DNA from: Thermodesulfomicrobium sp. WS
GTDB lineage: Bacteria > Desulfobacterota > Desulfovibrionia > Desulfovibrionales > Desulfomicrobiaceae
Assembly: GCF_027925145.1 (NCBI RefSeq)
Contig: NZ_AP027130.1
Coordinates: 1,364,001-1,428,000 of the forward strand
Reading direction: 5' to 3'
Length of the DNA: 64,000 nucleotides
Shown: piece by piece, positions 34,601 through 47,617 of the stretch
Position numbering within the stretch: position 1 is the stretch's first letter
Layout: each line of letters opens with the position of its first letter
Notes under the pieces: model-generated
Database searches by the model: none
What the model was told of the DNA's origin: nothing
Seen by the model: only the letters and a program-made list of their open reading frames with translations
Translations under genes and position numbers: made by a program

Positions 34601-35186
34601 GGACTTTCTCCTTGAGGATGTGGATGAGATATTGGGGGGGATTCGACTGTAAGATGCTTTGGAACTGCGTGCGGAAGTTGCGCACCAGACTGATATTTTC
34701 CACCGTCACATCAAAGGCCCGCCAGCCGTTTGTATCCTGGATGAGGGCAATTTCTACCCGCAGCGGGCCTTTATCCGTGGCAACGGTCAGCGCGACTTCC
34801 GCTTGGGTGGGGGATTGGAGGATTTCCTGATCGTAGGTGATGCCGCTGTGGTTGTAGGCATCGAGCTTATCGAGATAGGTCTGCTTGATGAGCTCGAGAA
34901 AAAGCTGGGTGAACTCCTGCTGCTCAGCTTCTGAGAGCATGCGCCAACGTTGCCCGAGGGCGCGGCGGGCCAGTTCCGTGGCGTTGAAAAAGGCATCCGT
35001 AATGCGGGAGAGCTCAGCGTAGCGCTGGCTGCGCCGCGCCTCTCCCCGGAGATCCGGGTTTTCCAGCACGGCAACCACGCGTTCCACATTTTCCCGCACA
35101 AAGGCGAGGGGGGAGGTTTCGGCCCACACGCATGCAGGGATCAGCCACGTGGCGAGCACCACGAGTATAGCGGCGCGGTTTTTCAT
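34584..35186 (-). CDS. mlaC: MlaC periplasmic phospholipid-binding protein
   Basis: A 200-residue protein with a cleavable signal (LATWLIPACVWAE) and the Ttg2D/MlaC fold, including LGQRWRMLSEAEQQEF and VTVENISLVRNFRTQF. It shuttles phospholipids across the periplasm between MlaA and MlaFEDB. Its ATG overlaps the mlaD stop. Confidence 0.9.
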   Translation of the reverse strand: MKNRAAILVVLATWLIPACVWAETSPLAFVRENVERVVAVLENPDLRGEARRSQRYAELSRITDAFFNATELARRALGQRWRMLSEAEQQEFTQLFLELIKQTYLDKLDAYNHSGITYDQEILQSPTQAEVALTVATDKGPLRVEIALIQDTNGWRAFDVTVENISLVRNFRTQFQSILQSNPPQYLIHILKEKVHGSTQ

Positions 35187-35638
35187 TGTTTCACACTCCC
35201 AAACACATACTTGGAGACCATTTCTTCGATGTCCAGAGCGGATTTGGTGTCCAGGATGGATCCACCGTCCGAAAGATTCTTGTCATCCGCTCCCGGGATG
35301 ATCTGCACATACTTGTCGCCGATGAGTCCGCTGGTCTTGATGGCGGCGGAAGAATCCGTGGGGATACGGATGGCGTTGTGGATCTGCATGACGACGCGGG
35401 CCTGGTAGAACTGCTCTTGGTCGAGTTGGATGTCCGCGACTTTTCCCACCGGCACGCCGGAGATCTCCACGGTGCTGCCCACGCGCAGTCCGCTCACGGA
35501 GCCGAAATGCGCGAAGATGGTATACATACCCCGGGCGAAAAGGGTGGTGTTGCCCAAAGTGAGGGTGAGGTATCCGGCGGCGAGGAGCCCCAGCAGGACG
35601 AAGATTCCGACGACAGTATACAACGTGGATTTTTTCAT
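35183..35638 (-). CDS. mlaD: MlaD (MCE-domain) protein
   Basis: A 151-residue protein with an N-terminal membrane anchor (VVGIFVLLGLLAAGYLTL) and one MCE domain (FGSVSGLRVGSTVEISGVPVG near residue 46; GLIGDKYVQI near 111). MlaD forms the hexameric ring of the phospholipid transporter. The start is ATG 35638, overlapping the mlaF stop in ATGA. Confidence 0.93.
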   Translation of the reverse strand: MKKSTLYTVVGIFVLLGLLAAGYLTLTLGNTTLFARGMYTIFAHFGSVSGLRVGSTVEISGVPVGKVADIQLDQEQFYQARVVMQIHNAIRIPTDSSAAIKTSGLIGDKYVQIIPGADDKNLSDGGSILDTKSALDIEEMVSKYVFGSVKQ

Positions 35639-36822
35639 AACGAGAAGCCTCGGGCTGCGACCAGGGCGTTGTGGATTTGGTGGAGGGGATGGATATCGGT
35701 GCGCAGAGGGGCGGCTGCGACCACGAAGGTCAGCCGACGCCGGCCGGACAAGGTCCCCAAGGAGCAGGCCGTCGGACACGCACTTACCGTCATGGCCACC
35801 TGACGGACAAGCGCTTCTTCCGTGGCCTGTGGTGCGTGGACCAGACAGGCGAGGCTCTCGGGGCCGACTCGAAAGACGCCGCCCCCGCCCACGGGAGCCT
35901 GCTGCAGGGTGCGCGCGACCTCCTGCAAGCAGGCAAAGGCCGCTACGTGACCGCGGTAATCGCGTATCTCCCGCAAGCCTTGCAGGCGCACGCTCACGAG
36001 CCACAGGTCCGGCTGCCCCTGGACCGCCTGGGCCTGGGTCACGAAGGCGGCGCGGCTGCCTAAGCCCATCAACTCCTCGGTGAGGATGCCTTGGCCGTCG
36101 AGATAAGGACGCAAGGCAGGAGATGCGTGTCTTTCAAGCTCCAAAGGAGTCCCGGAGAAGATCACCTGACCGTCATCGAGGATGCGCACGGCCTGGGCCA
36201 CGAAAAAGATGTCCGGCACGTCGTGGGTGATGATGACCGCGGTAAAGCCCAAGCGGGCATGGTACTGGGCGATCATGGTGAGCACCGTGTTCTTGCGCAG
36301 CGGGTCCAGACCGGTAGTGGGTTCGTCGAAGAAGATGACTTCGGGCCGGGTGATCAGGGCCCGTGCTAGGGCCACGCGTTTTTGCATCCCTCCGGACAGG
36401 GCCTTGGGGTATTGATTGATGGCGGAAGCGATGTCGAGCTGCTCGCACACCTCGAGCACCCGGGCGGCGCGCTCCTTGGGTTTGCCCTCGCCGCGCTCGC
36501 GCAAGGGGAGTTCGATGTTCTCGAACACCGTCAGCGAGTCGAACAGGGCATTGTTTTGGAACATGTAGCTCAGTCGCCGTTTGACCTCCCCGAATTGGGC
36601 CCGGGACATGCGGTTGTAGGCTTGCCCTTGAAAGAAGATTTCCCCTGCGTCCGGGCGCAAGAGGCCGATGGCGTGTTTGACGAGCACGCTCTTGCCGGTG
36701 CCGCTTTTGCCGATGATGGCGGTGATGGCGTTTTGTGGGATATCGAGACTGATGCCGTCGAGAACGACTTTCTCGCCAAAGGCCTTGCGGACGTTTTCGA
36801 AGCGGATGAGGGGCTCTGCCAT
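35635..36822 (-). CDS. mlaF: MlaF ATPase with C-terminal degenerate GGDEF-like domain
   Basis: A 395-residue protein. Residues 1-250 are a normal MlaF ABC ATPase: Walker A GKSGTGKS (38-45), Q loop, LSGGM (142-146), Walker B VIFFDEPT (162-169). Family members stop near residue 260-270, but this one continues for 130 residues. Residues 270-395 look like a GGDEF domain (WLVSVRLQGLREIRDYRGH, then CLQEVARTL, then VFRVGPESLACLV, then LTFVVAAAPL) with GGDEF changed to GPESL at 320-324, so no cyclase activity is expected. The ATG at 36822 is near mlaE; the upstream extension is not credible. Confidence 0.9.
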   Translation of the reverse strand: MAEPLIRFENVRKAFGEKVVLDGISLDIPQNAITAIIGKSGTGKSVLVKHAIGLLRPDAGEIFFQGQAYNRMSRAQFGEVKRRLSYMFQNNALFDSLTVFENIELPLRERGEGKPKERAARVLEVCEQLDIASAINQYPKALSGGMQKRVALARALITRPEVIFFDEPTTGLDPLRKNTVLTMIAQYHARLGFTAVIITHDVPDIFFVAQAVRILDDGQVIFSGTPLELERHASPALRPYLDGQGILTEELMGLGSRAAFVTQAQAVQGQPDLWLVSVRLQGLREIRDYRGHVAAFACLQEVARTLQQAPVGGGGVFRVGPESLACLVHAPQATEEALVRQVAMTVSACPTACSLGTLSGRRRLTFVVAAAPLRTDIHPLHQIHNALVAARGFSL

Positions 36823-36830
36823 GGCGCACA

Positions 36831-37613
36831 CTACATGAGGAAAGAGGTAATGGCGTAGTCCGCCATGAGCACGTACACGCACGACTGCACCACCGCCGAG
36901 GTGGTGGAGGCGCTCACCCCCCGCGCCCCGGCGCTGTCCCGGCGCAGATGGGTGTGAAATCCGCAATAGCAGCAGACACTCATGACCAAAAAGCCAAAGA
37001 CTACCGCCTTGATGAACCCGCCGGAGATATCGGAGAGCACCAAGGTGGATTGGATCTTGCTGAAGTAGATGCCTGCCCGCGAAGAGAGCAGGTGCGCCGC
37101 CAGGTAGCCGCCGAAGATGCCTACCACGTCGAAGACCGCGGTGAGCAGAGGAAAGGCGGCAAGGGCCGCCACCAGGCGGGGGGTGACCAAATGGCGCACA
37201 GGATCGATATCCATGGTCTCCAGGGCGTCGATCTGTTCTGAGATGCGCATGATGCCCAGCTCCGCAGCCGTACTGGAGCCTGCCCGCGCCACCACCATGA
37301 TGGCGGTGAGCACCGGCCCAAGTTCACGCACCAAAGACAGCGCCACCACCGTGCCTAGGGCCCCTTCGGCGCTGAATTTGATGAGCGTGTAGTACCCTTG
37401 GAGCCCCAGGACCATACCGGTAAAAAGCGCCACCAGGGCGACGATCCCCAAGGACCCCGCGCCAATGAACGCCACTTGGGCGACGATCTTTCCCCACAGC
37501 CGCTGCGGTCGCAACGGTTGCAGGAGGGCGTGAAGGCAGAACAGGGCGTAGCGGCCCAGATGCTCCACGAGAAATACAGTCCCCGCGCCGAGGCGGGAGA
37601 GGAAATTCGGCAT
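36831..37613 (-). CDS. mlaE: MlaE phospholipid transporter permease
   Basis: A 260-residue membrane protein with five or six helices. The MlaE signature RELGPVLTAIMVVARAGSSTAAELG is near residue 100 and RHLVTPRLVAALAAFPLLT near 140. First gene of the mla operon; it precedes mlaF by 8 bases. The ATG at 37613 gives the usual N-terminus; the longer frame has no ribosome site. Confidence 0.93.
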   Translation of the reverse strand: MPNFLSRLGAGTVFLVEHLGRYALFCLHALLQPLRPQRLWGKIVAQVAFIGAGSLGIVALVALFTGMVLGLQGYYTLIKFSAEGALGTVVALSLVRELGPVLTAIMVVARAGSSTAAELGIMRISEQIDALETMDIDPVRHLVTPRLVAALAAFPLLTAVFDVVGIFGGYLAAHLLSSRAGIYFSKIQSTLVLSDISGGFIKAVVFGFLVMSVCCYCGFHTHLRRDSAGARGVSASTTSAVVQSCVYVLMADYAITSFLM

Positions 37614-37706
37614 GATAGTTGTTCTCAAGGCTCGTATGGCGTTCCGATGGCAAGCGCGGTGCGTATCGCTGTTTTTGGACGATGCCAAGCAGGCAGTAGA
37701 TGGGGT

Positions 37707-41309: not shown

Positions 41310-41495
41310 CTATTTTTTGCGGTTCCGCAAAAGCAGAATACGAGTCCCTGCGGCGAGAAGTCCGCAGATGACGGCGAGAAAAAAGGCCTTGGCTGGCTCG
41401 TAGCCGAACCAGCGGGCGATCATCCCGAGGGCGCCGCCCACGAGGATGCCGCGCAACAGGATTTGCCGGGGGGCGTCACGGTGTTCGTCGTGCAT
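41310..41495 (-). CDS. Small two-helix membrane protein of unknown function
   Basis: A 61-residue protein (start MHDEHRDAPRQILLRG) with two hydrophobic helices separated by GYEPAKA and a basic end RNRKK. The ATG at 41495 follows TTGGAGAACTACC. I do not recognise a family. It lies 34 bases after the PEP-synthase-like gene and could be the last gene of that cluster. Confidence 0.55.
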   Translation of the reverse strand: MHDEHRDAPRQILLRGILVGGALGMIARWFGYEPAKAFFLAVICGLLAAGTRILLLRNRKK

Positions 41496-41529
41496 GGTAG
41501 TTCTCCAAGTGCGATGGACTGCCCCCACG

Positions 41530-44181
41530 CTAGGTGTTGGAAGCAGGGGTTGGCAAGGGCTGCTCGTAGAGCCAGCGCATTTGCGAAAGAAGCCGCTCGC
41601 GGTAGGCCGCGACCAAATCTTCTTGGGCCATGACCATGTCCAACTGCCGGGTGTGCATGATGAGGTGCCCGAGCAGTTCCAAATGCTTTTCGATGAACGC
41701 CGCCTCGCAGTCGTCCATGCGCGCCGCGAGATTGTCGCCGCGCACCTGGGTTTGGAAGTGGAAGGCGTCAAGGAGTTCTGCCACCAGCCGGGCGCGGCGG
41801 GCACGGCGGGTTTCGTCGGCAGCCCCGCCTTTGAATTGGAAGCGGATGTAGTTTTCCCGCGGCCGGGGGCCGGCCATGGTCTCCACGGACGTGAAGTGGT
41901 AGCCGAATCGGCATTGCATGGAGCAAAAATGCCGGGCGATGACAAAATAGTTTTTGGTGGCGTATTGGGAGGCGCCCCCGGGTTCCAGATTGGGGTTCGT
42001 AGCGCTTTGAAAAAGCACGGACATGAACCCACGGCCATCGAGGGTCGGCGGCCCTTCCCAGGGAAAGGCCACGATTCCCCGCCATAGGGCAAGCATGGGG
42101 ATGCTGGCGATGGAGGCCAAATCCACATAACGTCCTGTGACCTCACGGGTAAAGCCGTCATCGAGGTTGAGTACCCACCACTGCATGGGGACCACGGTTT
42201 TGAGCTGTTTGCTTGCCCGCGGCGAAAAGGGATGATCCCGGCCAAAGGCGAACATCTCGGTCACCGCCTTTTCGTGGCAAAAACGGGTGATGTCGTGGAG
42301 CGTGGTGCAATTTTTCGCCCGGAATCGGGGGCTGTCCGGGTCGGTGAGGGTGAGGGGCAAAATGACCTCGGCCAGTCGCTCCAGGGTTTGGTACACGGGA
42401 GAGCCTGCCAGAGGCGGCCGCGCGGGTTTTTGGACAAGTAGGACTTCCACACGGCCTGGGTAGATGCAGGTGTTGGAGGCATCAACCGTCACCATTTCCC
42501 CTGGGGCGAGTATGGCCGTAGCTCCCGGGACGCCAAAGAGTGCCGGGATGCGGAATTCCCGCGCCACGGTACCCAGGTGCCCGGCGGTGCTGCCGCGCTC
42601 GCTCACCACGGCGCTGGCCTGGGGGAGTACGGCCGCCCATTTGGGCAGAGCGTCCGCACATACCAGTACGGCGCCCTGGGGAACGGTGAGCATGTTCACG
42701 TTGTTGCGGAGTATGTGTACCGGACCACATCCCGCTCCGGGACTGACGGTCTGGCCGCCGCAGATGCGCGCAGAAGTCGTGATGGCTGCTGGCGCCAGGG
42801 TGTCGGGTTGCGGGGACTCGGCCCGGATTTCCAAGGGACGGGCCTGGAGGACGACAAGCGTATTTGCCGGAGTGAGCGCCCATTCCACATCTTGGGCCGT
42901 GCCGTAATGGTCCTCCAGAAAAAGCACCATGCGGGCGAGCTCTATGGCTTGAGAGTCGGTAAGGCAGGGGCGGGTGCGGGCACTTTCCTCCACCGTCTCC
43001 CTGCGCACGCCTTCGGTGGCTGCTTGGACGATGCGCCAGGATTTTTCCGCGATGTCCCTGACCGCAAGACGAGGCGGGTCTTCCCGCGTCACCTGGTACT
43101 GGTCCGTGGGCGCACTGCCGTCCACGACGCCCTTGGCGGCACCTAGGGCCGCGGTGATGTGCACGTGGGTGTTTTGGGGGTCCACAGGGCTGCGGGAATA
43201 GGCCACGCCGCCAGCAGCGGCGTCCACCATGACGAGACACCCCACAGCCATAAAGACCTCGTCTTCCCGGATCCCCTTGCGGTGCCGGTATACGGTGGCA
43301 TGGGGCGAATACTTGCTGGCGAGGATCTCCTTGTAGGCATCCACCAGACTTTCTTCGCTGAGGTTAAGGAGTGAGCGGTGCTGGCCTGCGAAGCTGGCCC
43401 CGGCGGCGTCTTCGCCCACAGCGCTGGAGCGCAGGGCCACGCGCGGGGCGTATCCCAACCGGGCCTTGAGGCGGGCGTATCCATCGAGGATGGCCTGCTG
43501 GACCTCTTCCGGAACCGGCGCGTCGAGGATTTTTGCCTGGATACGCGTGCAGATGTCCAAAATGGAGAATGACGGTGTCTCGCTAGTGGCTTCCACGTCA
43601 AAGAGGGCGCCACCCATGGCGTGGGACTGCACCATGCAGGCGATTTCTTCGCCCAGGCCGTTATGCCGGAAAAACGTCTGGCAGGCCGTAGCGGTAATGG
43701 CAAAGCCGTCGGGTACCGGGATGCGCAGACGCCGAAGTTCTCCCAAGTGGGCCATCTTGGCCCCCACGTCGTCGGCCATGGCGGCGGAAAGTTCGTGGAG
43801 ATCAAGGACTAAGGCCGAAGTGCCCACCACTTTTCGGGGCGCCAAGCGGGTGCGGATCTCTTCGGCAACGGCGTGGAAGGCGAGTGGGAGGTCGGGGTAG
43901 CGTTCTGGGGCCAGGGCGCGCAGGCGCTCCACCATGCTGTAGACCTTGGTGAGCAGGGTCGTCACCGTGGAGCGCAGAAAATACATCCCAAAATGACGCT
44001 CGCCGTGTAGGGCGGCCTCCAGGGCGGCCATGAGGTCGAGACTGGCGTTGTTGGCGGCAAGCAGGCGCTGGAAGTTTTCGTAGCGAGCCCGGAAGATGGC
44101 TTCCTGATCCTCGGCGTCCGCCGCAGACAAAGGCGGTGGGGTCCGGCCAAGAAGGCTTTGGATGGCGCGCATAATGCCCAT
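41530..44181 (-). CDS. PEP-synthase-like ATP-dependent phosphotransferase
   Basis: An 883-residue protein. After about 130 residues of unknown fold come an ATP-grasp pyruvate-dikinase domain (about 135-460, with RIPVPDGFAITATACQTFF and RSSAVGEDAAGASFAGQH) and the swivelling phosphohistidine domain with GSTAGHLGTVARE near 540. The final 250 residues lack the PEP/pyruvate barrel of true PpsA (no NDLTQ-type motif) and have instead a Trp-rich segment and Cys residues. It therefore phosphorylates an unknown acceptor. ATG 44181 follows AGGAG. It follows the 1013-residue gene by 8 bases. Confidence 0.75.
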   Translation of the reverse strand: MGIMRAIQSLLGRTPPPLSAADAEDQEAIFRARYENFQRLLAANNASLDLMAALEAALHGERHFGMYFLRSTVTTLLTKVYSMVERLRALAPERYPDLPLAFHAVAEEIRTRLAPRKVVGTSALVLDLHELSAAMADDVGAKMAHLGELRRLRIPVPDGFAITATACQTFFRHNGLGEEIACMVQSHAMGGALFDVEATSETPSFSILDICTRIQAKILDAPVPEEVQQAILDGYARLKARLGYAPRVALRSSAVGEDAAGASFAGQHRSLLNLSEESLVDAYKEILASKYSPHATVYRHRKGIREDEVFMAVGCLVMVDAAAGGVAYSRSPVDPQNTHVHITAALGAAKGVVDGSAPTDQYQVTREDPPRLAVRDIAEKSWRIVQAATEGVRRETVEESARTRPCLTDSQAIELARMVLFLEDHYGTAQDVEWALTPANTLVVLQARPLEIRAESPQPDTLAPAAITTSARICGGQTVSPGAGCGPVHILRNNVNMLTVPQGAVLVCADALPKWAAVLPQASAVVSERGSTAGHLGTVAREFRIPALFGVPGATAILAPGEMVTVDASNTCIYPGRVEVLLVQKPARPPLAGSPVYQTLERLAEVILPLTLTDPDSPRFRAKNCTTLHDITRFCHEKAVTEMFAFGRDHPFSPRASKQLKTVVPMQWWVLNLDDGFTREVTGRYVDLASIASIPMLALWRGIVAFPWEGPPTLDGRGFMSVLFQSATNPNLEPGGASQYATKNYFVIARHFCSMQCRFGYHFTSVETMAGPRPRENYIRFQFKGGAADETRRARRARLVAELLDAFHFQTQVRGDNLAARMDDCEAAFIEKHLELLGHLIMHTRQLDMVMAQEDLVAAYRERLLSQMRWLYEQPLPTPASNT

Positions 44182-44189
44182 GGCAGCTC

Positions 44190-47100
44190 CTATGCGGTGT
44201 CCTGGAGTGGAGCATGGAGGCGGCGCCATGCGCCAAGCCGCTCCATGTCCCGCAGGTAGGATTCATAATGGTCCAGGTAAAAGGCCAGGGCTTTGGTGAA
44301 ATTCTTCCCCACCAGGCCGTCCACGAGCATGCGGCTGGTCTCCCGGAAGCGTTTGAGCACCAGCTGGGAGCGGAAAAAGATCAACCATTCTTCCTGGGTC
44401 ATGGTGCGGACGATCTGGCGCAGGGCGCTTCTCGCCCGCGGCTGGTAGTACCAGAAGTACATGAGGTCCAAGGCGTTGACGATGAGCATCTGCTCCAATT
44501 CCTGCGCTTCGAGATTGAGGGTGTCGAGGAATGCCTTGGGCGTTTGCAGCATCTCGAGCACGTCTTCTTCGGGAAAGATGGTGTCGAGCCGGGCGAAGGT
44601 ATTGAAGAGCATGGTGAGCTTGGTGCGGTAGTCCCGCAGACGTATGGCGATGTTGGCGTTGCGGTCGGCCAGTCCTTCGATTCCGCCGGCAACGGTGTCG
44701 GAGGCGAGTTTGGAGAGGATGGCGGCTGCAGCTTGGAGGGTGGCGCCGGGGTCAGCGGTCCCAAAGGCAAGGAGGATCCCCTCCGCGATATCATTGTAAA
44801 GGAGCGCCACAGGGATGGAGATGATGGAGCGGAAGAGGTTGCCGATGGCCGCAGCTCGGGGCAGCCCCCGCCATAGATTGTGGGAAAAGATGTACAATCC
44901 GTTGGCAGCCGCCATGATGGCATAGAGGAGCACCGGGTGGCTCGCCACGGTGATGCCCAAACCATGGTGGAGCAGCAGGGTTTTGACGCAGTAGTCGAGG
45001 AGCGGCACGGAAAAACCGGTAAAGAGCAGGGAGTCCGCAATGCGGTTGGCGCTGATGAGCGATCGCCAGGGCAGTTCGCTTGGGCGTTTGAGCCCGCCGC
45101 CACCGAGTACGGTCTGCAGCACGTTGCGAACCCCGGTGATGGCAAACCAGATGAAGGCTCCACCATAGGCGAGCACCCACCAGTCCTTGGTGAGGGCAAA
45201 GGTGAGAAAAGCGGGGATAAAGCCGATACATACCTTGAGGATGTTTTTCAGGTGGGAATTCAAGGTGCCCCAGCGTCCTTGTATGGAGGCTTGGGGCGAC
45301 CGGCTTCCTCCCAACCCTCCCAAGGTCACCACGTTGCCCGGACCATCGCTCCACGCCAAGTGTTGTACTTCCCACGACAGGGAAGGCGGCGGCAGGAGTC
45401 CCAAAAGGCGGGCAGCCCAAGAGAGTTGGCCGTGTTCCACGCTTTGGCGCAGGTGGCGCACCAGATGGGCCCGCAAGGGCAAGCGGAGGCGCTGGGGGTT
45501 TTGGGGATCATGGATGGCGGCTTGGGCGCGTTGAGGTAAGGTTTCGGCCACTGCCAGTCCCATGCCGTAGAACCGCCGCGATTGTCCGGTGGAACTGCTG
45601 CCGGCGCGCACGCCCATGGGGCGGCCGGCGTATGCTTGATGGAGAGCGGGGAGATGCTCCAAAATCGCAAGCAAGTCCTCACAGCGCGTGGTCATGGCCG
45701 CGAGCTCGGCCTCGAGCGTTTTGCGCTCGGCGTCGGTATTTGCCTGGGAAACGCGGCGGGAAGCAGCCTCACGCTCCTGATGGTAGTCCCAGACGATGCT
45801 GCGCACCACCCGCTTGAGGGCGATGATGTGTTCATCGCCCAAGGCTTGCTGGAGTTCCGCGAGGCGCTGGGAGACGCGCTGCGGATTGGTGATCTCTACG
45901 GCTTCGGCGCAAGAAGCCTCTACCGGTCGGCCACCGATGAGCGTCTTGAGGTTGTAGATTTCCAGGTCTGTGACCAGGCCATTGCATTGGGCGACGATCT
46001 CCAGCACATCGGCCACCGTCAGGTTGCTTGGGTTGAGCACAAAGCGCGAGGCAGGCTGGAGTTCGGCGAGGTGCTGCAGGAGCTCTTTGGGAGAGCGGCG
46101 CAAGAGTGCCGGCACGTGCACATCGTCGGACGGTTGCGTGGGATCATGGAGGTGCGGATTGCGGCAGGGCTGGAGGTAGTGGTGGATGAGGTATTCGGAA
46201 TCCACCTCCTCCAACGGGACACGGGCACGGTGGTGGGCAGAAGGGTGCTCGGCCGCGGCGTTATGGATGCTCGTCTCGATGTGGCGCGCGAGGTGTAGGA
46301 GTGACGGCTGCCCTTCGCCGACGAATTGCAGGAACTGCTCCTGGGATATGGGCGGAGGCAGGAAGCCGAGCAACTCGCCAAGGCTACGGCGGTGGGTGGT
46401 GTTGTAGGCATCGAGGGCGCCAAACACGTAGCGCTGGTGGTAGCGGGAGACCTGACGGCCGGCTTCCATGAAGGACTGCACGGCGGGCGCAGCGAGAAAG
46501 CGGCGGAAGGATTCGGGATCCGGTAAGGAAAAGGGCTCCCAGGTGAAGCGAGCATAGAGGTCTCGGAAGCGGGCACGGACCTCGATGCCGATACGCACGC
46601 GCATGTCGAGAATGGCGGCGGCCTGCAGGAGTTCTTCGGCCACCTCTGGGGTGACGAAGTTGTAGTACACCACCGTGAGGTGGCGGATCCCCTTGATCCA
46701 CGCATCCATGACCAGGTGCGTCGGGGTTTTGCGGCCTTTGGTGTTGGCATCGTGCACGTGGTCGTCAAAGGCCACCTGATTCCACTCTTCGGGCATTTCC
46801 AGGAGATGGTAGTGGGCAAGGGCCCGGCGCACCTCCCGGGGGCGGCCGGTGGACACGGCCCGAAAGGCGTGGGCCAGGCGCAGTTGGGATGCGGTATCGC
46901 CCTGGTGGCGGATGAGGTCCTTCATGATCTGCATGAGTACTCGGGCGGTGTTGCGGGGCAGGCGCACGTCCGCGGTGAGGAGTACTTCGTCGCGCAGCAT
47001 GGTGAGGGCGGCCAGACGCTCCGGCGCCTTGTCTGCGGCAAGGGAGCCCAGGAGACTGGCCACGGCATAGGCGATGCGCAGCCCTCGAGGAGCGGCCAGT

Positions 47101-47231
47101 TCCTTGATGCCGTGAGGATGCAGGGCCGGAGCCATGAGGGAGGCGAGGCTGCGCGGCCGCGTTGCCCGAGAGAGGACATCCGCTACCAGCTCGAGAAGGG
47201 CATGGTCTTGAAGGTCGAAAAAGAGGTTCAT
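44190..47231 (-). CDS. 1013-residue protein with PHP-like N-terminus and membrane helices
   Basis: No known family as a whole. Residues 155-220 resemble a PHP phosphoesterase or hydrolase: FDDHVHD at 155-161 gives an HxH metal motif, TPTHLVMDAWIKGIRHLTVVY follows, and the GIEV motif is at 215-218; the usual TDH is replaced by VYYN. A helical, Glu/Arg-rich region lies near 490-570. Several membrane helices (about 690-860, for example FIPAFLTFAL and SHPVLLYAIMAAANGLYIF) follow, then a 150-residue soluble end. The ATG at 47231 overlaps the response-regulator stop; the open frame beyond is noncoding. Confidence 0.65.
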   Translation of the reverse strand: MNLFFDLQDHALLELVADVLSRATRPRSLASLMAPALHPHGIKELAAPRGLRIAYAVASLLGSLAADKAPERLAALTMLRDEVLLTADVRLPRNTARVLMQIMKDLIRHQGDTASQLRLAHAFRAVSTGRPREVRRALAHYHLLEMPEEWNQVAFDDHVHDANTKGRKTPTHLVMDAWIKGIRHLTVVYYNFVTPEVAEELLQAAAILDMRVRIGIEVRARFRDLYARFTWEPFSLPDPESFRRFLAAPAVQSFMEAGRQVSRYHQRYVFGALDAYNTTHRRSLGELLGFLPPPISQEQFLQFVGEGQPSLLHLARHIETSIHNAAAEHPSAHHRARVPLEEVDSEYLIHHYLQPCRNPHLHDPTQPSDDVHVPALLRRSPKELLQHLAELQPASRFVLNPSNLTVADVLEIVAQCNGLVTDLEIYNLKTLIGGRPVEASCAEAVEITNPQRVSQRLAELQQALGDEHIIALKRVVRSIVWDYHQEREAASRRVSQANTDAERKTLEAELAAMTTRCEDLLAILEHLPALHQAYAGRPMGVRAGSSSTGQSRRFYGMGLAVAETLPQRAQAAIHDPQNPQRLRLPLRAHLVRHLRQSVEHGQLSWAARLLGLLPPPSLSWEVQHLAWSDGPGNVVTLGGLGGSRSPQASIQGRWGTLNSHLKNILKVCIGFIPAFLTFALTKDWWVLAYGGAFIWFAITGVRNVLQTVLGGGGLKRPSELPWRSLISANRIADSLLFTGFSVPLLDYCVKTLLLHHGLGITVASHPVLLYAIMAAANGLYIFSHNLWRGLPRAAAIGNLFRSIISIPVALLYNDIAEGILLAFGTADPGATLQAAAAILSKLASDTVAGGIEGLADRNANIAIRLRDYRTKLTMLFNTFARLDTIFPEEDVLEMLQTPKAFLDTLNLEAQELEQMLIVNALDLMYFWYYQPRARSALRQIVRTMTQEEWLIFFRSQLVLKRFRETSRMLVDGLVGKNFTKALAFYLDHYESYLRDMERLGAWRRLHAPLQDTA

Positions 47232-47617
47232 GGTCGGCAGGTGCGCAAACGCTTTTTTCGTACCGCGTCTTCGAGCTTGTAGATGAGGTCTTCCAGGTCT
47301 GCGGGTTTCATGAGATAGTCCATGGCGCCGCACGACATGCCTTCCATGGCGGTTTCGATGCTGGCATGCCCGGTGAGCATGATGACTTCCGTATCCGGCC
47401 AGGCAGCTTTGATGCGGCGAAGGACGTTCAGCCCATCCATGCCCGGCATCTTCACATCCAAGACCACCACGTCCCGGGGCTCTTGGGCAAGCATGGCGAG
47501 GGCTTCTTCGCCGCTGGTGGCGCTCGTAGCCTGGATGCCCCGCTTGGTGAGGCGTTTGATGATGGTGCGCAAAAAGTCCGGCTCGTCGTCCACCAAGAGT
47601 ACGGAGTAGGAATCCAT
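47228..47617 (-). CDS. Single-domain response regulator of the PHP/PEP-synthase-like cluster
   Basis: A 129-residue receiver with VDDEPD near residue 9, phospho-acceptor Asp in VVVLDVKMPGMDG near 54, Thr in IMLTGHAS and Lys in YLMKPAD. It has no output domain. It is the first gene of a four-gene unit and overlaps the 1013-residue gene by four bases (ATGA). The ATG at 47617 is preceded by CAAGGAGG. Confidence 0.87.
   Translation of the reverse strand: MDSYSVLLVDDEPDFLRTIIKRLTKRGIQATSATSGEEALAMLAQEPRDVVVLDVKMPGMDGLNVLRRIKAAWPDTEVIMLTGHASIETAMEGMSCGAMDYLMKPADLEDLIYKLEDAVRKKRLRTCRP

Follow-up and report, generated by a model that had tools for sequence, protein, structure and literature searches.

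The 64,000-nucleotide stretch analyzed here (the window) carries four minus-strand genes in one run, encoding a lone receiver (RR), a predicted membrane protein with a degenerate PHP domain (PHPm), a PEP-synthase-like phosphotransferase (PPSL) and a 61-residue peptide with two predicted membrane helices (Table 1). RR, PHPm and PPSL are a genus-level, lineage-specific union of two modules. The first-pass annotation had treated them as one gene system; neighborhood surveys showed that the trio is not co-conserved, and that reading splits in two, giving a membrane family of pseudo-PHP proteins and a family of PEP-synthase-like proteins linked to receivers, the latter having a known, unexplained phenotype. 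The best reading, to which we assign a probability of roughly 0.45, is that a receiver-controlled phosphohistidine phosphotransferase has been joined, in one genus, to a receiver–pseudo-PHP pair.

Table 1. Genes and domains of the cluster, in window coordinates.
Feature	Position	Strand	Description
RR, lone receiver	47617-47228	-	129 aa; PF00072
PHPm	47231-44190	-	1013 aa; N-terminal helices, degenerate PHP domain, helical membrane module, C-terminal helices
PHP-fold domain of PHPm	45357..46778	-	residues 152-625; VIA-align and Foldseek
Predicted membrane helices of PHPm	44766..45257	-	residues 659-822, about five; from model
PPSL, PEP-synthase-like phosphotransferase	44181-41530	-	883 aa; PPDK_N and PEP-utilizers
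ATP-grasp domain of PPSL	42814..43818	-	residues 122-456; structure match and conservation
Swivel (phosphohistidine) domain of PPSL	42427..42786	-	residues 466-585
C-terminal domain of PPSL	41533..42399	-	residues 595-883; in place of PEP barrel
Small ORF	41495-41310	-	61 aa; two predicted membrane helices (hydropathy)

The genes are packed as tightly as initially described, with overlaps or gaps below about 35 bases. RR and PHPm share a 4-nt overlap (ATGA), PPSL follows after 8 nt with a GGAG ribosome-binding-like site ahead of it (a longer start at 44229 is possible), and the small ORF comes 34 nt later. PHPm is conserved in relatives at full-length identities of 90% (the nearest), 72% and 43-56%, and PPSL at 96%, 74% and 42-56%; the reading frames of the cluster are thus not products of chance. 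Operon spacing is kept in genome G002, where protein identity is 72-74%. A promoter and terminator scan of the cluster did no better than on shuffled sequence. In the 2.36 Mb genome of the host, a sulfate-reducing member of the Desulfomicrobiaceae, the run is bounded by a divergent comEC gene and a chemoreceptor (MCP) gene; the latter, which lies downstream, was rejected as a cluster member, not being found beside the small gene in G002. An anti-phage system was likewise rejected, PADLOC defense models giving no match to PHPm, PPSL or the 61-residue peptide and only weak receiver matches to RR. MlaD-, MlaF- and MlaE-like genes (lipid transport) lie downstream of the cluster on the same strand (35183-37688), and lptF- and lptG-like genes come after comEC on its other side.

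RR is a CheY-like lone receiver, as the initial annotation had it: PF00072 covers residues 6-115 of 129 (E 2.5e-32), the phosphorylation residues D10, D11, D54, T82 and K104 are present, and there is no output domain. It stands directly upstream of PHPm in all 16 loci of genera g1 and g4, a pairing that g2 and g3, of the same family, do not show in their genomes. In a receiver tree the PHPm-paired receivers form one clade (support 96/99) placed among the receivers of PPSL islands, nearest to one that precedes a TauE permease, a DVU0250-like protein and PPSL, a placement of moderate support (84/86 and 92/95). Elsewhere in the host genome, at 0.79 Mb (L280:4761-6527), a lone receiver 53% identical to RR directly precedes a TauE permease, with no PPSL nearby.

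PHPm belongs to no Pfam or NCBIfam family above cut-off; the Pfam PHP model, PF02811, does not recognize it, and it is absent from that model's matches in the genome. Its AlphaFold2 model, built from 62 sequences (pLDDT 86.7, pTM 0.84), contains a real PHP fold, with helices inserted at 237-360 and a long hairpin of helices at 450-533, so that the fold first proposed for the 1013-residue protein has been recovered by structure prediction. VIA-align matched the model to 3e0f, a putative metal-dependent phosphoesterase, at Z 20.8 over 255 residues, to RNase AM (9etk) at Z 19.6 and to 2yb1 at Z 19.2, the first unrelated chain reaching 8.9, and Foldseek matched it to the PHP fold at E 7e-6. Proof of the relation by sequence alone was dropped, since an hhalign comparison with the RNase AM-like family of the same genome scored weakly (probability 4%, P 0.003), although the N-terminal motifs line up; the structural match carries the claim. 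A resemblance of residues 466-533 to kinase dimerization helices (Z near 7) was set aside as a common helical hairpin. The added membrane helices of the earlier account also appear in the model, followed by a helical tail; because their hydropathy maxima are moderate, only 1.6-1.7, we place PHPm in the membrane by prediction. Searched within the full model, the membrane module gave no matches.

The PHP fold coordinates metal through nine ligands, with the consensus H, H, D/H, H, E, H, C/H, D/N, H (PMC3666897). Alignment with the RNase AM-like protein of the same genome maps these positions in PHPm to H158, H160, K165, Y190, E217, R228, N400, S546 and T548, the first five and last two on clear motifs and R228 and N400 on our reading of motif order. 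The motifs originally noted, DDHVHD (156-161) and GIEV (215-218), were correct to within one residue, and TDH is indeed lost. The window protein thus keeps only H158, H160 and E217. Of 111 sequences, all have H160, 98 have H158 and 100 have E217. An aspartate stands at position 546 in 47 of them and another residue in 64, and the other five positions are replaced almost throughout. One might suppose that PHPm is still an enzyme, holding one metal on H158, H160 and E217 (with D546 where present), and the retention of HxH and the glutamate, all PHP metal ligands, speaks for this. We consider it improbable, however, given the serine at position 546 here and its variability across the family, the replacement of the remaining ligands by K165, Y190, R228, N400 and T548, and the example of the PHP domain of E. 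coli DNA polymerase III, in which five of the nine ligands are gone and no metal is bound (PMC3666897).

Around the PHPm site D161, K165, R167, K168, H172, M175, D176, W178 and K180 are invariant or nearly so, suggesting a conserved, non-catalytic job. With six of nine ligands lost and a basic pocket gained, PHPm therefore most likely acts by binding a ligand or partner that bears phosphate, which it would leave unhydrolyzed, and from its model it is a probable pseudo-phosphoesterase on a membrane anchor. A relative in genome G237 (31% identical) has the GRK motif and the TDH loss in common with PHPm and seems to retain histidine where PHPm has R228 and N400; as it has more of the ligands left, the family probably descends from an active PHP enzyme by stepwise decay. 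RNase AM and CV1693-type PHP phosphoesterases share the fold and its helical insert (Z 19-21), but PHPm has lost six of their nine ligands and gained a membrane module. The polymerase III alpha PHP domain likewise kept its fold and lost ligands, with arginine among the replacements (PMC3666897); there, however, it is a domain of a polymerase, whereas PHPm is a stand-alone membrane protein with different conserved residues.

Of 101 genomes in the order, 82 have relatives of PHPm, as do 36 of 296 sampled across the phylum, and tblastn confirmed at least 497 stretches over the whole genome collection. A viral origin was considered and discarded, one IMG/VR scan having found no relatives. Several genomes of genus g12 carry two or three copies, one contig holds two PHPm genes tail to tail (L097:294-6523), and in G013 (C1:1626686-1629822) the gene is seemingly split into two overlapping frames near residue 711, by a frameshift or an assembly error. 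In several Syntrophales-type genomes and beside the distant relative in G237 (L074, L079, L081, L083, L194:4425-5195), a glycerophosphodiester phosphodiesterase-like gene lies within about 90 bases of PHPm, a possible hint of its ligand.

PPSL matches PPDK_N (E 3e-78) and PEP-utilizers (E 5e-17) and has a predicted model with a pLDDT of 84.5. It lacks the PEP/pyruvate barrel, as had been recognized at the outset; no Pfam match to the barrel was obtained in any of 34 family members. Its ATP-grasp domain keeps the catalytic residues K142, R251, E257, D258, E433, Q446 and R448, and residues 121-577 align with both rifampin phosphotransferase (5hv3, VIA Z 40.3) and PEP synthase (2ols, 38.2). The swivel domain resembles those of pyruvate kinase (2e28, VIA Z 15.3) and phosphorylated enzyme I (2hwg, 13.3), and carries a nearly invariant histidine, H535 (42577-42579). 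As the catalytic residues and H535 are conserved, PPSL is expected to phosphorylate H535 from ATP. The C-terminal domain has its own invariant residues (C625, H629, D630, R633, H636, E637, R758, H762, R796, D816, R845 and D848); it gave no Pfam match in the 34 members, no solved-structure match by sequence and no match in a structure search within the full model.

NCBIfam PEP synthase models match PPSL at 280-298 bits against cut-offs of 598-740, the matches ending near residue 582, and the rifampin phosphotransferase equivalog NF041857 reaches 189 bits against a cut-off of 999. PPSL shares its ATP-grasp and phosphohistidine domains and their catalytic residues with PEP synthase (pyruvate, water dikinase), but lacks the barrel, carries additional helices at its N-terminus and differs in its C-terminal domain. 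Rifampin phosphotransferase (RPH) and the HpeHI, CreHI and PpsAB dikinases likewise combine ATP-grasp and a swivel histidine with a swapped acceptor domain (PMC12167813). The suggested likeness to RPH therefore stands for the shared domains and the swap, and fails on the placing of the extra domain: the acceptor domain of RPH lies between ATP-grasp and swivel, whereas in PPSL the swivel comes straight after ATP-grasp and the extra domain is C-terminal to it. The acceptor domains of RPH-type dikinases show no sequence match to the extra domain of PPSL.

The association of PPSL with receivers is real and widespread. In the order, a receiver lies within 3 kb of 17 of 20 PPSL loci (a lone one at 15; the other three loci had no receiver in that range), compared with 4 of 19 PHPm loci outside the family, where a lone receiver was found at one. 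A typical island runs from a kinase through two receivers, a TauE permease and a DVU0250-like protein to PPSL; among 29 further loci across the phylum, the last three genes recur together in 15 and a receiver lies within 1.5 kb in 12. No fusion of receiver and PPSL was seen. The host genome holds two more PPSL genes. One adjoins a receiver and has TauE and a pair of kinases no more than 12 kb away; the other, of 800 aa (L279:6825-10290, at 2.33 Mb), has only a distant receiver and no TauE, and is directly followed by a DSP-type phosphatase gene, as in the nitrate cluster of Desulfovibrio.

This nitrate cluster comprises Dde_0597-0605 and DVU0251-DVU0245, and D. vulgaris transposon mutants in DVU0247 (a lone receiver) or DVU0246 (PPDK-like) grow in 100 mM nitrate as they do without it, for which leaky thiosulfate transport has been suggested (PMC4001038). 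In Desulfovibrio sp. A2 the same gene order runs DUF169, TauE, a 196-aa protein, a phosphonate-type binding protein, a kinase, a 119-aa receiver, a PPSL-family protein and a DSP phosphatase, and the PPDK-like protein there matches the PPSL profile over 28-860 of 868 residues (E 1.6e-177). The nitrate cluster thus holds a PPSL-family gene, on the evidence of gene order, gene sizes and Pfam content rather than of D. vulgaris sequences. Because both mutants have the same nitrate phenotype, they are genetic evidence for one pathway containing a lone receiver and a PPSL-family protein, though that protein is a paralogue about 30% identical to the PPSL of the window. The nitrate cluster, like the window, sets a lone receiver with a PEP-synthase-like protein that has ATP-grasp and swivel domains and no barrel; there the two adjoin, and in the window they share one operon-like run with PHPm between them. 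The nitrate cluster has no PHPm but includes TauE, a DVU0250-type protein, a phosphonate-type binding protein, a histidine kinase and a DSP phosphatase, none of which is among the genes flanking the window cluster (comEC, lptF-like, MCP, HU and pdxK-like).

The trio of RR, PHPm and PPSL is confined to genus g1, the only genus in which PHPm adjoins PPSL (three of three genomes). RR–PHPm pairs extend to g4 and no further; elsewhere PHPm is mostly solitary, and at 19 PHPm loci outside the family no lone receiver on the same strand lies 150 bases or less from the gene. In g4, RR–PHPm adjoins comEC without PPSL, while PPSL and its 61-residue partner (directly downstream of it in 3/3 g1 and 14/15 g4 loci) are located elsewhere, often beside a second PPSL. 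Across 101 genomes 71 have both PHPm and PPSL, 11 PHPm only, 10 PPSL only and 9 neither, a loose link (Fisher p 0.002, uncorrected for relatedness). Given this limited adjacency and loosely linked presence, we rejected a conserved three-gene system in favor of a genus-level union. In some g12 genomes (L163:5102-14604, L211) PHPm lies about 4-7 kb from PPSL with unrelated genes between, and the cluster in L163 reads PPSL-receiver-kinase-PPSL.

Coupling of the two modules may be incidental, since PHPm–PPSL adjacency is limited to one genus. The modules could even be separate systems that a rearrangement placed behind a common promoter, with no common pathway; the g4 arrangement, in which each stands apart, and the solitary PHPm genes elsewhere would fit. 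We think this less likely than not, however, as the 8-9 nt spacing of PHPm and PPSL is kept between genomes G000 and G002 despite 26-28% protein divergence, and RR is of the PPSL-island kind. Lone receivers 2-25 nt from PPSL in several genomes also raise the thought that PPSL itself is the receiver's phosphodonor, passing phosphate from ATP through H535 to D54 in place of a histidine kinase. A swivel-domain phosphohistidine could donate to aspartate, but the islands usually hold histidine kinases too, which makes an extra donor unnecessary; we know of no precedent for a PPSL-type enzyme in this role and regard it as very doubtful. A stronger contender, though still short of even odds, is that PPSL is a small-molecule dikinase comparable to rifampin phosphotransferase and HpeHI, its C-terminal domain binding a metabolite or anion-linked compound and the receiver only regulating it. 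Domain kinship, the use of small molecules by the known dikinase family (PMC12167813) and island partners such as TauE, sodium:sulfate-type permeases and a phosphonate-type binding protein all favor this. Catabolic genes were not recognized in the islands, however, and the lone receivers, kinases and two adjoining DSP-PTPase cases suggest signaling at the protein level.

Dikinase chemistry and receiver logic beyond the papers cited are general knowledge, and on that footing we sketch how the preferred receiver-controlled phosphotransferase might work. One module would be RR, a lone receiver open to phosphorylation, together with PHPm, whose translation is coupled to that of RR and whose invariant basic pocket would bind a phosphate-bearing ligand or partner from the membrane anchor. 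PPSL and its small membrane partner would form the other, PPSL transferring phosphate from ATP to H535 and on to an acceptor held by the C-terminal domain, either a small molecule, as in known dikinases (PMC12167813), or a protein. The operon contains no histidine kinase; one encoded elsewhere would phosphorylate the receiver, which would then govern how active PPSL is or where it is located, PHPm serving as the membrane-side partner. We suggest, more tentatively, that lone receivers control a phosphohistidine phosphotransferase of the PEP-synthase type, that this enzyme steers oxyanion transport by modifying a protein or metabolite, and that in the Desulfomicrobiaceae this arrangement has been plugged into a membrane pseudo-PHP sensor of a phosphorylated ligand. 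If true, this would be a new kind of two-component output.

PHPm represents a membrane family without a name, built on a degenerate PHP domain and found in most sampled genomes of the order and in several other families of the phylum. PPSL-type proteins, for their part, may be a widespread and almost unstudied output of bacterial two-component signaling. As mutants of the PPSL paralogue show a strong phenotype that can be selected for, in two strains amenable to genetics, the link between receiver and phosphotransferase is directly testable, and the nitrate phenotype bears on the control of souring by sulfate reducers.
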